Positions 2,124-11,818 of a DNA stretch of 21,127 nucleotides are shown here, piece after piece. The position numbers were made by a program, and so were the translations under genes. The DNA comes from a bacterium (GTDB taxonomy: Bacteria; Zhuqueibacterota; QNDG01; JAFGCO01), in NCBI GenBank assembly GCA_016932575.1, contig JAFGCO010000038.1, positions 1 through 21,127 of the forward strand, given 5' to 3'. Within the stretch, counting starts at the first letter, position 1. Every line of letters begins with the position of its first letter. The notes below the pieces were generated by a model. It saw nothing but the letters and a program-made list of their open reading frames with translations, did not search any database and was not told where the DNA came from.

Positions 2124-4517
2124 ATGAAAAAATCCGAATTAAAAAACCGGTTGAAAAACGAAATCCTTATCCTGGACGGCGTATACGGCACCATGCTCCA
2201 GCCCCATCTGCCCGCAGGCGCCTGTGTGGATATGGCCAACCTGGAACAGCCGGAACTCGTGGGTCAGGTCTGTAAAGCCTATGTGGATGCAGGAGCCGAT
2301 CTTATTTCAACCAATACATTCGGCGCCAGCCGGATTAAACTGGATGAATACAAACTGGGCGGCCGAACCCGGGAAATCAATGAGGCAGCCGCCGCGATTG
2401 CAAAAAAACACGCGCAGGGCCGGTGGATTACCGGGGTGATCGGACCCACCGGAAAACTGGTGGAACCCCTGGGACCGCTCACACTTGACGAAACTGTTGA
2501 TGTTTTCAAGGAACAGGCGCTGGCGCTCGCTGAAGGCGGAGTGGATTGTTTTCTTCTGGAAACATTCAGTGATCTGAAAGAGATTAAAGCCGCAATCATG
2601 GCAATCAAGGAACATACGGATCTACCTATACTGGCCTGTATGACTTTTGGTGAAGACTTTTTGACCTTCACGGGCACCGATCCGGTTACTGCGGCCAATA
2701 TATTGGTCTCATTAGGCGTGGATGTTCTGGGCGTCAACTGCTCGACCGGCCCGGAACCCATGCTGGAAGTGCTTGGCCGTTATGCTGCATTCACGGATAT
2801 ACCTCTGGTAATCGAGCCCAATGCAGGCATTCCCCGGCTCAGCGATGCCACAGTGAGTTATGAGGTGAATCCGGATGAAATGGCCCTTTTCGCGGACAAA
2901 TTCGTACAGATAGGCGCGAATATCGTGGGCACCTGCTGCGGCAGCACACCGGAATACACGGCCCGTCTGTGCGAAACCATTAAAAACCGCCGCCCTGTAT
3001 CGCGGCAGAAGCAGACCGGCCTTTGCCTGTCGGGCCGGACAAGAACCGTGATCATCGGTCCCGGACTGCCGTTCGGAATCATCGGAGAACGGATCAACCC
3101 GACCAACCGGGACGATCTCGCCGAAGCCCTGCAGCAAGAACGTATCAGCCTACTTCAGAAAGAGGCTCAGGATGAATTCAAAGAAGGCGCCCATATGCTG
3201 GATGTAAATATCGGCGTGCCCGGCCTGGATGAAGCGGGCATAATGGGAAAAGTGATCCGGGGAATCGAAAATGTGGTTCCGGTTCCTCTGGTCATTGACA
3301 GCACCAATCCTGCAGCCGTCGAAGCAGCCCTGCGGGAATCTCCGGGAAAGGTGCTGATCAATTCCGTACACGGCAGTGAAGACAGCATGAATTCCATTAT
3401 CCCGCTGGCTGCAAAATACGGAGCCGCACTGCTCTGCCTGGCCGTGGATGAAAAAGGCATTCCCAAAACCGCGGAAGCACGGCTGGATGTACTGAAGCGG
3501 ATCATTGAACGCACGGATGCGGCCGGCATACCGCGCAGCCATCTGATCTGCGACTGCCTCACACTCACCGTATCGGCTCAGCAAAAAAGGGCCGATGCCA
3601 CACTCAGGGCCATTCAAATGGTAAAAGAAGAACTGGGACTCCCCACAGTCCTGGGCGTTTCCAACATTTCATTCGGACTTCCCGAGAGAAGCCTGATCAA
3701 TGCCACTTTTTTAAGTATGGCCATGGCAGCAGGTCTGGATGCGGCCATCATGAATCCCGGTGACAGGCGGATGATGGAAACAGTGAGGGCCGCCTCGGTC
3801 CTGACGGTACGGGACAAAGACTCCAAAGCCTTTGTATCGTCCCATCATAAAAGGAAAAAAACACAAAAACAGAAAGAACCGTACGAAATTATTCAGGATA
3901 CCAATCCCGTCTATCAGGCAGTCCTTTCCGGAAATTCGGATGAAATTGAAGGACTGATCCAGACCGCTTTGGATTCCGGGCATACTGCTCTGATCATTAA
4001 CAATGAAATGCTGATCCCCGCAATTCAGGAAGTCGGCCGGCAGTACGACCGAAAAGAGGTATTTCTTCCGCAAATGATTCTTGCTGCGGAAACCATGCAG
4101 AAGGCTTTCGCGCTTCTGGAATCCCACTTCCAGAAGGGAGATGTCAAATCTGCCGGAAAAGTCATCCTGTGCACTGTCAAAGGCGATGTGCATGACATCG
4201 GTAAAAACATCGTGGCTTTGTTTCTTAAAAATGAGGGCTTTGAAGTCATTGATCTGGGCAAAGATGTGACTGCTGACATCATCGTTCAGGAAACCAAAAA
4301 ATCAAATGCCGATATCGTGGGATTATCGGCACTGATGACCACCACCATGGTCCAGATGCCGGTCGTGATTGAACAGATGAAAAAGAAAGGATTAAGCGCC
4401 AAAACCATCGTGGGCGGCGCTGTTGTTACCAAAACTTACGCAAAAGAAATCCAGGCGGACGGCTATGCAAAGGATGCGCTGGAAGCAGTGGTTAAAATAA
4501 AAGAACTGGTCAGCTGA
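2124..4517 (+). CDS. metH: Cobalamin-dependent methionine synthase, short form without reactivation domain
   Basis: This enzyme moves a methyl group from 5-methyltetrahydrofolate through cob(I)alamin to homocysteine, giving methionine, in the cytoplasm. Three modules are visible in 797 residues. The homocysteine domain (about 12-290) starts at DGVYGTML and carries the zinc ligands Cys206 (GVNCSTGP), Cys271 and Cys272 (GTCCGS). The pterin-binding domain (about 310-570) has GERINPT at 321-327, DVNIGVPG and GVSNISFGLPER. The cobalamin cap and Rossmann domains (about 590-797) carry GDVHDIGKN at 687-695, His690 being the cobalt ligand. The AdoMet-binding reactivation domain of the E. coli enzyme (about 1,220 residues) is absent, as in Thermotoga maritima, so a separate reactivator should exist elsewhere. 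AGGA lies 12 bases before the ATG, slightly far. The gene stands alone. Confidence 0.93.
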   Translation: MKKSELKNRLKNEILILDGVYGTMLQPHLPAGACVDMANLEQPELVGQVCKAYVDAGADLISTNTFGASRIKLDEYKLGGRTREINEAAAAIAKKHAQGRWITGVIGPTGKLVEPLGPLTLDETVDVFKEQALALAEGGVDCFLLETFSDLKEIKAAIMAIKEHTDLPILACMTFGEDFLTFTGTDPVTAANILVSLGVDVLGVNCSTGPEPMLEVLGRYAAFTDIPLVIEPNAGIPRLSDATVSYEVNPDEMALFADKFVQIGANIVGTCCGSTPEYTARLCETIKNRRPVSRQKQTGLCLSGRTRTVIIGPGLPFGIIGERINPTNRDDLAEALQQERISLLQKEAQDEFKEGAHMLDVNIGVPGLDEAGIMGKVIRGIENVVPVPLVIDSTNPAAVEAALRESPGKVLINSVHGSEDSMNSIIPLAAKYGAALLCLAVDEKGIPKTAEARLDVLKRIIERTDAAGIPRSHLICDCLTLTVSAQQKRADATLRAIQMVKEELGLPTVLGVSNISFGLPERSLINATFLSMAMAAGLDAAIMNPGDRRMMETVRAASVLTVRDKDSKAFVSSHHKRKKTQKQKEPYEIIQDTNPVYQAVLSGNSDEIEGLIQTALDSGHTALIINNEMLIPAIQEVGRQYDRKEVFLPQMILAAETMQKAFALLESHFQKGDVKSAGKVILCTVKGDVHDIGKNIVALFLKNEGFEVIDLGKDVTADIIVQETKKSNADIVGLSALMTTTMVQMPVVIEQMKKKGLSAKTIVGGAVVTKTYAKEIQADGYAKDALEAVVKIKELVS

Positions 4518-9712: not shown

Positions 9713-9741
9713 TTGATTCGAGTCACTATTTTCCATATCTT
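9713..9741 (+). promoter_or_regulatory. Candidate sigma-70 promoter of the leader/COG2122/DUF39 operon
   Basis: TTGATT (9713-9718), a 17-base spacer and TATCTT (9736-9741). Transcription from about 9748 would give a leader whose first ribosome site (AGGA, 9755-9758) lies just inside the RNA. The -10 box is imperfect. Confidence 0.45.
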
Positions 9742-9765
9742 TATTTCATCTTTCAGGAAAATATA

Positions 9766-9837
9766 ATGATGACAGCAAAAACATATGAGTGCCTCATGAT
9801 GGACATGCGGATTTCCCGTTCTGCGGGGTTTCGGTAG
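9766..9837 (+). CDS. Methionine-rich leader peptide (23 codons)
   Basis: The frame starts ATG ATG at 9766 and ends TAG at 9835-9837. AGGA (9755-9758) precedes it at 7 bases, a better ribosome site than that of the next gene. Met occupies codons 1, 2, 11, 12 and 14, that is 5 of 23; codons 10-14 read Leu-Met-Met-Asp-Met (9793-9807). Codon 9 is Cys. A rho-independent terminator follows 31 bases after the stop, directly before genes for homocysteine formation. This is the arrangement of his, leu, thr and trp leader peptides, here with Met as the control residue. The peptide itself likely has no function beyond being translated. It is too short for coding statistics, so the call rests on position, ribosome site, codon content and RNA structure. 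Confidence 0.6.
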   Translation: MMTAKTYECLMMDMRISRSAGFR

Positions 9838-9867
9838 AATGCCTTTTATTCAATAGTTGGAAACCGG

Positions 9868-9901
9868 AAGCCTGCGGGACAGCCTCTCGCAGGCTTTTTT
9901 T
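9868..9901 (+). terminator. Rho-independent terminator just before the COG2122 gene
   Basis: AAGCCTGCG (9868-9876) pairs perfectly with CGCAGGCTT (9888-9896) around an 11-base loop, followed by an uninterrupted run of T to 9901. The next start codon is only 8 bases further on. No large gene ends nearby (the last stop is 9553), which supports a regulatory role. Confidence 0.85.
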
Positions 9902-9909
9902 AAGAAAAA

Positions 9910-10668
9910 ATGCTAAACAGAATTCGAAATCATATTGAGCAGGATGAAACCGTTATGACGCTGATTTGCGACAGGCAGTATTGTCCCACTGCGGCATCAT
10001 CGGTAAAAAATTTTCGTGCATGTCTGCTCAATCATATAAAAACTTTTCCGGAATTTAAAACCAGTCACAAACCATTGACTGCTCCTTCAGGCATCGATCC
10101 TGACATCAAACGCATGTATGAATCAGGTTCAACCGTTAATGTGGGACCCATGGCAAGTGTGGCTGGAATGGTAGCTGAAATTGCCCTGAATACCGTCCTT
10201 AATGAAGGTGCTTCCGAGGTTGTTGCAGATAATGGCGGTGATATTGCCCTTTTTGTAAAAACTGCCACTGCGATTGGCATCTATGCGGGCGAATCCTTCG
10301 TGAACAATATGGCATTTCAAATTGAATCGACTCCCCGCCCCCTGGGCATCTGTACGTCATCCGGCACCGTCGGACATTCTTTCAGCTATGGTTGCGCAGA
10401 TGCGGCAATTATTATCAGTGAAAACATACCCCTGGCTGATGCAGCGGCAACTGCCCTGGGCAATCGAATCCAGAGCTCTGCGGACCTGGACACATGTTTT
10501 CAATTTCTGGATAACATCCCCGAAATTCAGGGGGCAATGGTTATTTTCAGAGACCGGGTCGCAATGTGGGGCATATTGCCGGAATTGGTTGAAGCAGAGG
10601 TAGATAAAGGATTGATCACAAAAGGCTTGAATTTTCACATGGAGACGATGCATGTCAAAAACATATGA
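9910..10668 (+). CDS. UPF0280/COG2122 family protein (ApbE-like fold), sulfur assimilation partner
   Basis: The 252 residues match the UPF0280 family: a PEF...KPL stretch (47-55), NVGPMASVAGMVAEIA (77-92), VVADNGGDIALF (104-115), CTSSGTVGHSFSYGCADA (148-165) and LADAAATALGNRI (175-187). The fold is related to the flavin transferase ApbE. The Methanosarcina acetivorans member MA1715 is known to support sulfide assimilation. The N-terminus is about 10-15 residues shorter than usual; a stop at 9901-9903 blocks upstream extension. No Shine-Dalgarno precedes ATG 9910, only TTTAAGAAAAA; ATG 9955 is an alternative start but would remove a conserved strand. The gene overlaps the DUF39 gene by 17 bases, so the two act together. 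The exact biochemical role is unknown. Confidence 0.85.
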   Translation: MLNRIRNHIEQDETVMTLICDRQYCPTAASSVKNFRACLLNHIKTFPEFKTSHKPLTAPSGIDPDIKRMYESGSTVNVGPMASVAGMVAEIALNTVLNEGASEVVADNGGDIALFVKTATAIGIYAGESFVNNMAFQIESTPRPLGICTSSGTVGHSFSYGCADAAIIISENIPLADAAATALGNRIQSSADLDTCFQFLDNIPEIQGAMVIFRDRVAMWGILPELVEAEVDKGLITKGLNFHMETMHVKNI

Positions 10669-11818
10669 CGAGATCAATGAGAAAATAAAAAAACGCAGGG
10701 CTGTTGTCGTCACAGCTGAAGAGATTATTACAATTATCAAAGAAAAAGGGCCGAAGAAAACAGCAGAACAGGTGGACGTGGTCACTACAGGAACCTTTGG
10801 TCCCATGTGTTCTTCAGGAGCCTTTATCAACTTCGGTCATGCCAAACCCAGAATACGGGCCACACGTGTTTTTCTGAATGATGTCGAGGCATATGCCGGC
10901 ATCGCGGCTGTGGACTGTTACATCGGCGCCACACAGACGAGGCATCATGCACTTGATGTTTACGGCAAGCGTGATTTATCATATGGCGGCGGTCATGTCA
11001 TTCATGATTTGGTTGCAGGAAATCCGGTTCATTTAAAAGCCGAAAGTGACGGGAGTGACTGTTATCCCAATCTGAAGCTTGAAAAAGACCTGGTACTCAA
11101 GGAACTGCCAGACGCATTTTTATTCTGCCCCAGAAACGGATACCAGAATTATCCGTGCGCCGTGAATAAATCGGACAAGAATATTTATACGTATATGGGC
11201 GTACTGAAAGCCAATCTGGGCAATGCCACTTTCAGCAGTGCCGGACAGCTCAGTCCATTGCTCAATGATCCTCTGTTTAAAACCATCGGTCTTGGAACCC
11301 GGATATTTCTGGGCGGTGGCATCGGATATGTCATCGGACCGGGTACGCAGCACAATCCGGATGTCCCCAGAACAGAACAAGGCGTTCCGACCATACCCGC
11401 CGGCACCATGGCCGTGACCGGCGATCTGAAGAAAATGAACAGCCGCTGGCTTAAAGGCATTCACTACAGGGGATACGGGGCCACGATGCGTGTGGGTATC
11501 GGTGTTCCCATCCCCGTTCTGAATGAAGAGATATTAATGTATACTGCGGTTTCAGATGCGGACATTAAAACCGTCATTCTGGATTTCAGCCATGATTATC
11601 CCTATGGAACCGGTAAAGTGCTGGGAGATGTGGATTATGCCCGGCTCAGGCACGGTGTTTTGGAGATTGAGGGTAAAATGGTGCCCTGCTTTCCCCAATC
11701 GAATTACTCAGACGCACTCTGTATTGCACGAATATTAAAATCATGGATCGAACGGGGTGTGTTCCAGCTCGGCAATCCGGTAGAATTGCTGCCGGATGGA
11801 TTGAAAAATACACATTGA
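10652..11818 (+). CDS. DUF39/COG1900 homocysteine biosynthesis protein
   Basis: In methanogens and sulfate reducers, COG1900 proteins (MA1821 type) work with a NIL-4Fe4S ferredoxin protein (MA1822 type) to turn aspartate semialdehyde plus sulfide into homocysteine, without O-acyl-homoserine intermediates. The 388 residues show the family marks: VVTTGTFGPMCSSGAFINFG (43-62, Cys53), RVFLNDVEAYAG, GGGHVIHDLVAG, a Cys at 137 in ESDGSDCYPN, GTRIFLGGGIGYVIGPGTQH, and YRGYGATMRVGIGVPIPVLNEE. Family work points to two conserved cysteines forming a persulfide; Cys53 and Cys137 are the candidates. No CBS pair or ferredoxin domain is attached, and no MA1822-like gene is adjacent. GGAG about 8 bases before the ATG lies within the COG2122 gene. 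A strong terminator closes the operon. Confidence 0.88.
   Translation: MSKTYDEINEKIKKRRAVVVTAEEIITIIKEKGPKKTAEQVDVVTTGTFGPMCSSGAFINFGHAKPRIRATRVFLNDVEAYAGIAAVDCYIGATQTRHHALDVYGKRDLSYGGGHVIHDLVAGNPVHLKAESDGSDCYPNLKLEKDLVLKELPDAFLFCPRNGYQNYPCAVNKSDKNIYTYMGVLKANLGNATFSSAGQLSPLLNDPLFKTIGLGTRIFLGGGIGYVIGPGTQHNPDVPRTEQGVPTIPAGTMAVTGDLKKMNSRWLKGIHYRGYGATMRVGIGVPIPVLNEEILMYTAVSDADIKTVILDFSHDYPYGTGKVLGDVDYARLRHGVLEIEGKMVPCFPQSNYSDALCIARILKSWIERGVFQLGNPVELLPDGLKNTH

Follow-up and report, generated by a model that had tools for sequence, protein, structure and literature searches.

Here we report that the leader of a homocysteine biosynthesis operon, found in a 21,127-nucleotide (nt) stretch of bacterial DNA (hereafter referred to as the window) and in eight related genomes, is very probably a transcription attenuator in which a translating ribosome senses the supply of charged methionyl-tRNA. 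Leader-peptide attenuation is textbook knowledge for tryptophan, histidine, leucine, threonine and phenylalanine, and methionine sensing is usually ascribed to MetJ, SAM riboswitches or T-boxes. An earlier note on the window had proposed an attenuator with methionine codons ahead of its COG2122 and DUF39 genes, and comparison with related sequences supports that mechanism well.

We computed the coordinates of the parts, their conservation, their spacing and their mutually exclusive pairing. The leader open reading frame (ORF; positions 9766 to 9837, on the plus strand like the other parts of the leader and operon) begins with ATG at 9766, encodes the 23-codon peptide MMTAKTYECLMMDMRISRSAGFR (9766 to 9834) and ends with TAG at 9835 to 9837. 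Methionine occupies codons 1, 2, 11, 12 and 14, exactly as had been claimed, and the M-M-D-M segment (9796 to 9807), for which most relatives have M-G-M, contains the putative regulatory codons. The ribosome site described earlier is the putative Shine–Dalgarno sequence AGGA (9755 to 9758), 5′ of the ATG. Transcription is predicted to start near 9748, after a putative sigma-70 promoter, TTGATT-N17-TATCTT (9713 to 9741), in which the −35 element (9713 to 9718) and the −10 element (9736 to 9741) are separated by 17 nt. The intrinsic terminator (9867 to 9901), likewise confirmed, consists of a 13-base pair (bp) stem (9867 to 9879 and 9885 to 9897) with the loop CAGCC and a run of seven T (9895 to 9901), and has a folding energy of −21.0 kcal/mol. 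The first gene of the operon is a UPF0280/COG2122 gene (9910 to 10668), PRK04334-like, which overlaps by 17 nt with the DUF39/HcyBio homocysteine biosynthesis gene (10652 to 11818; PF01837, 486.7 bits). Elsewhere in the window (2124 to 4517) lies a MetH-like gene of 797 amino acids. Its matched domains bind homocysteine, pterin and B12 and do not include a reactivation domain; no methionine leader was found 5′ of the gene.

The close type of UPF0280 is present in 9 of 12 genomes of the order and in one genome (G061) from another order of the phylum, ten genomes in all; there are also two additional, more distant UPF0280 copies. In nine of the ten, a promoter, an ORF with clustered methionine codons, its stop codon, a spacer of 26–32 nt and a terminator follow one another in the same order, so that a short translatable ORF of 23–34 codons, with its start and stop spacing kept, lies between the promoter and the first gene. 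The nine leader-bearing genomes (G000, the 4.4-Mb draft genome that contains the window, G003, G004, G005, G007, G008, G009 and G010 in the order, plus G061) belong to seven genera in six families and at least two orders. In G007 and G003, the ORFs would start with TTG and GTG, respectively; their distance to the methionine cluster equals that of the ATG starts in G008, G005 and G010.

The promoter of the window is present as the earlier note described it, but, taken by itself, its match does not exceed what this region yields by chance; it gains weight because eight relatives carry near-consensus promoters there. These consist of TTGAC(T/A) or TTGTCA, 17–18 nt and TA(T/C)ATT, end 46–85 nt 5′ of the methionine cluster, and include TTGACT-N17-TATATT at the place equivalent to the window promoter. 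They also bear on the possibility that the hairpin only ends transcription of the preceding gene, or stops transcripts prematurely and constitutively, the ORF being there by chance. In favour of this explanation, the genes 5′ of the window leader are on the same strand as the operon, and one genome, G006, lives without the element; its UPF0280 gene (G006:C101:8558, L114) is the sole close-type copy with neither leader nor terminator. However, the terminator is separated from the upstream gene by a conserved promoter, and the whole set of parts is common to nine genomes, together with the methionine enrichment and the antiterminator pairing described below. We therefore regard a plain terminator as the most improbable of the explanations weighed here. 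The pattern that would speak against an attenuator, a terminator retained where the leader ORF or its methionine codons are gone, was found in none of the ten genomes. The G006 UPF0280 gene has a promoter-like TTGACT directly 5′ of its start codon, and the DUF39 genes of that genome are on another contig.

When both strands of well over 100 loci were searched for a short ORF with clustered methionine codons 26–33 nt 5′ of a terminator, the only sequences returned were the nine leaders of the family and a few unrelated matches, which we judged to be due to chance: L021 overlaps a dut-like gene, and L053, L155 and L164 are weak or far from a UPF0280 or DUF39 start. No methionine leader was found at the deltaproteobacterial DUF39 loci, where L021 is the match, and none was found outside the phylum when UPF0280 was searched in 388 genomes and 30 loci were examined. 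In the genome of the window, ATGNNNATG followed by a terminator matched 17 other sites; those examined were gene-end terminators or coding sequence, including L121 (after a yqeY-like gene) and L130 (after dapA), and none was seen 5′ of a methionine gene. Other matches to ATGGGNATGCG with a T run in the wider phylum had no UPF0280 or DUF39 gene adjacent to them.

The codon content of the leaders is consistent with selection for methionine. Internal methionine accounts for 26 of 218 codons in the nine leaders, compared with 2.4% in the genes of the window, and for 22 of 172 codons when one leader per genus is counted, although this comparison is biased, because methionine codons had themselves served to find some members of the family. 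Six leaders (G061, G004, G005, G007, G003 and G009) were first reached through UPF0280 or DUF39, not through the methionine motif. The methionine codons cluster 5′ of the antiterminator in all nine leaders, within flanks that vary. Two such codons are few for attenuation, yet the trp leader likewise uses two. Between the ORFs of G005 and G010, 20 of 78 sites differ, with no insertions or deletions and with the differences distributed 8:2:10 over the three codon positions, a pattern suggesting that the leader ORF is translated. Shared ancestry or a different constraint could account for the near-constant ATGGGCATGCG.

The usual motif is M-G-M-R, and the window carries the variant M-D-M-R (in full, M-M-D-M-R). 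The retention of Gly and Arg around the methionines in most leaders exceeds what simple codon sensing needs, and MGMRRSA is kept between G005 and G010 with two synonymous changes. Both observations would fit a nascent-chain arrest motif, with the peptide and free methionine or SAM stalling the ribosome as TnaC does with tryptophan. By contrast, G004 has M-G-M-P, the window departs from the motif, and the leader of G061, MKKYMQNKMMPKRSILRGFAQSVP, which belongs to another order and has the same layout, reads MMPKR; this replacement suggests that methionine codons are kept, rather than one peptide motif. Moreover, given the geometry of the leader, arrest by abundant methionine would turn the biosynthetic genes on when methionine is plentiful, which is the wrong sign. 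Arrest by the peptide is thus quite unlikely, and the comparison favours the sensing of methionyl-tRNA at the codons themselves.

To examine the pairing, we placed a ribosome so that its A site held the second methionine codon of the cluster, and folded the RNA left uncovered as far as the terminator loop. The first free base was set 20 nt downstream of the A of the first methionine codon (a general value for the ribosome footprint). In the predicted minimum-energy folds of all nine leaders, the 3′ part of the ORF pairs with the 5′ arm of the terminator, consistent with the claim that a ribosome stalled at the methionine codons leaves the antiterminator free. In the window, this antiterminator comprises 16 bp with one mismatch (9819 to 9835 with 9863 to 9879; −25.9 kcal/mol) and occupies the GC core of the terminator 5′ arm; the pairing of 9826 to 9834 with 9864 to 9873 recognized in the earlier note forms only part of it. 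The 5′ strand of the antiterminator, in the 3′ part of the ORF up to the stop codon, starts 20 nt downstream of the A of the codon-12 ATG, and 9819 is where a ribosome with the codon-14 methionine in its A site would end. Counted from the first methionine codon of the cluster, the first pair lies at 20 nt in G000, 21 nt in G007, G003 and G008, 22 nt in G005, 23 nt in G010, 25 nt in G009 and 28 nt in G061, that is, at 20–28 nt in eight of the nine leaders, and at 31 nt in G004. With a ribosome placed at the stop codon, which the antiterminator 5′ strand precedes or reaches in most leaders, the terminator alone remains, as expected if a ribosome finishing the peptide masks the antiterminator.

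We assessed the pairing with shuffled ORF parts in a ribosome-bounded region, chosen as a narrower one after an initial duplex test over a broad region had given weak results for several leaders. Dinucleotide shuffling gave p values of 0.0013 (G000), 0.0043 (G007), 0.038 (G003), 0.045 (G008), 0.001 (G005 and G010) and 0.023 (G061), so that seven of the nine leaders are below 0.05, along with 0.20 (G004) and 0.56 (G009); as the leaders are related, these figures, like the permutation rank given below, are guides rather than strict probabilities. Codon shuffles agree and place G009 at a borderline 0.08, and G004, with a weak antiterminator of −10.6 kcal/mol, is no better than chance. The terminators of all nine leaders range from −14 to −22 kcal/mol, and their helix covaries across the nine sequences (five pairs with double changes and 11 double-change cells, matched in 0 of 500 shuffles). 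Because MAFFT aligns the ORF part poorly, covariation of the antiterminator was tested by partner exchange: when terminator arms were exchanged among eight leaders, the leaders' own partners ranked 6 of 40,320 permutations. The earlier note had proposed looking for covariation in both hairpins; it is positive for the terminator, and the antiterminator partners change together by this different test. Furthermore, the ORFs of G005 (ATGAATT with AATTCAT), G010 (ATGAAA with TTTCAT) and G007 match bases of the terminator loop, a pairing not explained by terminator function alone.

On this basis, we infer that the leader ORF is translated, that ribosomes stall on it when methionine is limiting and that stalling relieves termination. 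RNA polymerase would start near 9748, and a ribosome would begin the leader peptide. When charged methionyl-tRNA is scarce, the ribosome would halt at the methionine codons (9796 to 9807) with its front edge at about 9818, leaving 9819 to 9835 free to pair with 9863 to 9879 before the 3′ arm of the terminator exists, and transcription would continue into the homocysteine genes. A ribosome reaching the stop codon would instead cover the 5′ strand of the antiterminator, allowing the terminator to form. The antiterminator would have to act kinetically, through co-transcriptional folding, because, once the 3′ arm is included and the full free RNA is folded to equilibrium, the terminator is the favoured structure in every leader except that of G010.

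A shortage of methionine also hits initiation, which complicates methionine as a signal, and in classical attenuators an absence of translation leads to termination. Even without any ribosome, the antiterminator is the predicted minimum-energy fold of the RNA that precedes the 3′ arm in six of the nine leaders, and the classical protector hairpin appears to be present inconsistently among the nine. As methionine is needed for both start and elongation, an operon that is on without translation would give the same sign for the two failures; this reading comes from folding energies only. It is conceivable, if somewhat doubtful, that the leaders are tuned specifically to methionine, most of them lacking a protector hairpin, such that failed initiation and stalling at methionine codons both free the antiterminator and switch the operon on.

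Control of the same genes elsewhere is consistent with a methionine signal. SAM-I riboswitches precede them in other phyla (L029, L030, L077, L063, L080, L018, L060 and L062), and a T-box precedes UPF0280–DUF39 in an armatimonadotal genome (L059:1829–2116; 79.5 bits, E = 1.3e-17, below the Rfam cut-off of 93 bits), in which the specifier loop GAACAUGG, read as AUG, is apparently a methionine specifier. Since these elements precede the same genes, methionine status, and in one case probably methionyl-tRNA, controls them in those lineages. In L062, from a Peptostreptococcaceae genome, tandem SAM-I aptamers (444 to 546 and 614 to 716) lie about 1.3 kb 5′ of DUF39. These precedents would favour a riboswitch or protein-binding leader (SAM, SAH or T-box) with an incidental ORF in the window too. 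However, covariance-model searches found no SAM-I in the 12 genomes of the order and no SAM-I or T-box match in the window, and no Rfam family reached its cut-off in the window leader; the best match, His_leader (21.2 bits, E = 0.25), falls short of the gathering score of 49 bits, and the ORF has no histidine codons. The conserved parts, moreover, are the methionine cluster of the ORF and the terminator. A riboswitch is accordingly highly improbable, and attenuation by a translating ribosome remains our reading.

The operons differ in their gene content. UPF0280, lysC and DUF39 form the operon in G003, G009 and G004; in G008, UPF0280 is followed by the beginning of lysC, where the contig ends; and in G061 asd takes the place of lysC (L140:154–1209, minus strand). 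In G005, the gap between UPF0280 and DUF39 contains a 25-residue remnant of an aspartokinase N terminus (L006:2645–2719, minus strand), 68% identical to the LysC of L012, and lysC seems to have been deleted from this operon. The DUF39 route yields homocysteine from sulfide and a substrate that aspartokinase and aspartate-semialdehyde dehydrogenase supply. Desulfovibrio vulgaris needs COG2122 and DUF39 to synthesize homocysteine, and methionine rescues the mutants (PMC5764234).

The element resembles the trp, his, leu, thr and phe attenuators in that a short ORF carries codons for the product of the pathway, the antiterminator overlaps the terminator 5′ arm, the position of the ribosome would be decisive and the stop codon lies close to where the antiterminator strand ends. 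It differs from them in its methionine codons, in serving the DUF39/COG2122 homocysteine route in an uncultured phylum, in its apparently inconsistent segment 1:2 protector hairpin and in matching no Rfam family. Where the SAM-I riboswitch (RF00162) precedes DUF39 operons, methionine status regulates the same enzymes, but this element senses SAM through an aptamer and is absent from the order studied. The T-box (RF00230) of L059 would sense methionyl-tRNA charging for the same gene pair, but it binds tRNA directly through stem I and its antiterminator, without the need for translation. The cysteine-codon leaders of Actinobacteria are also short ORFs with sulfur amino acid codons before sulfur metabolism genes, whereas their codons specify cysteine and they have no conserved terminator (PMC1262725). 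The same study reported no methionine attenuators in Actinobacteria and placed methionine operons elsewhere under S-box control (PMC1262725). We found no methionine leader-peptide attenuator in the open-access papers searched, which is weak evidence of absence; the class of mechanism is known, and the amino acid, the operon and the lineage appear to be new. A methionine-codon attenuator would fill a gap in the list of attenuated amino acids and tie regulation to the little-studied DUF39/COG2122 route to homocysteine, in which the operon content supports a role for lysC or asd, and it raises the question of how a ribosome can sense an amino acid on which its own initiation depends.
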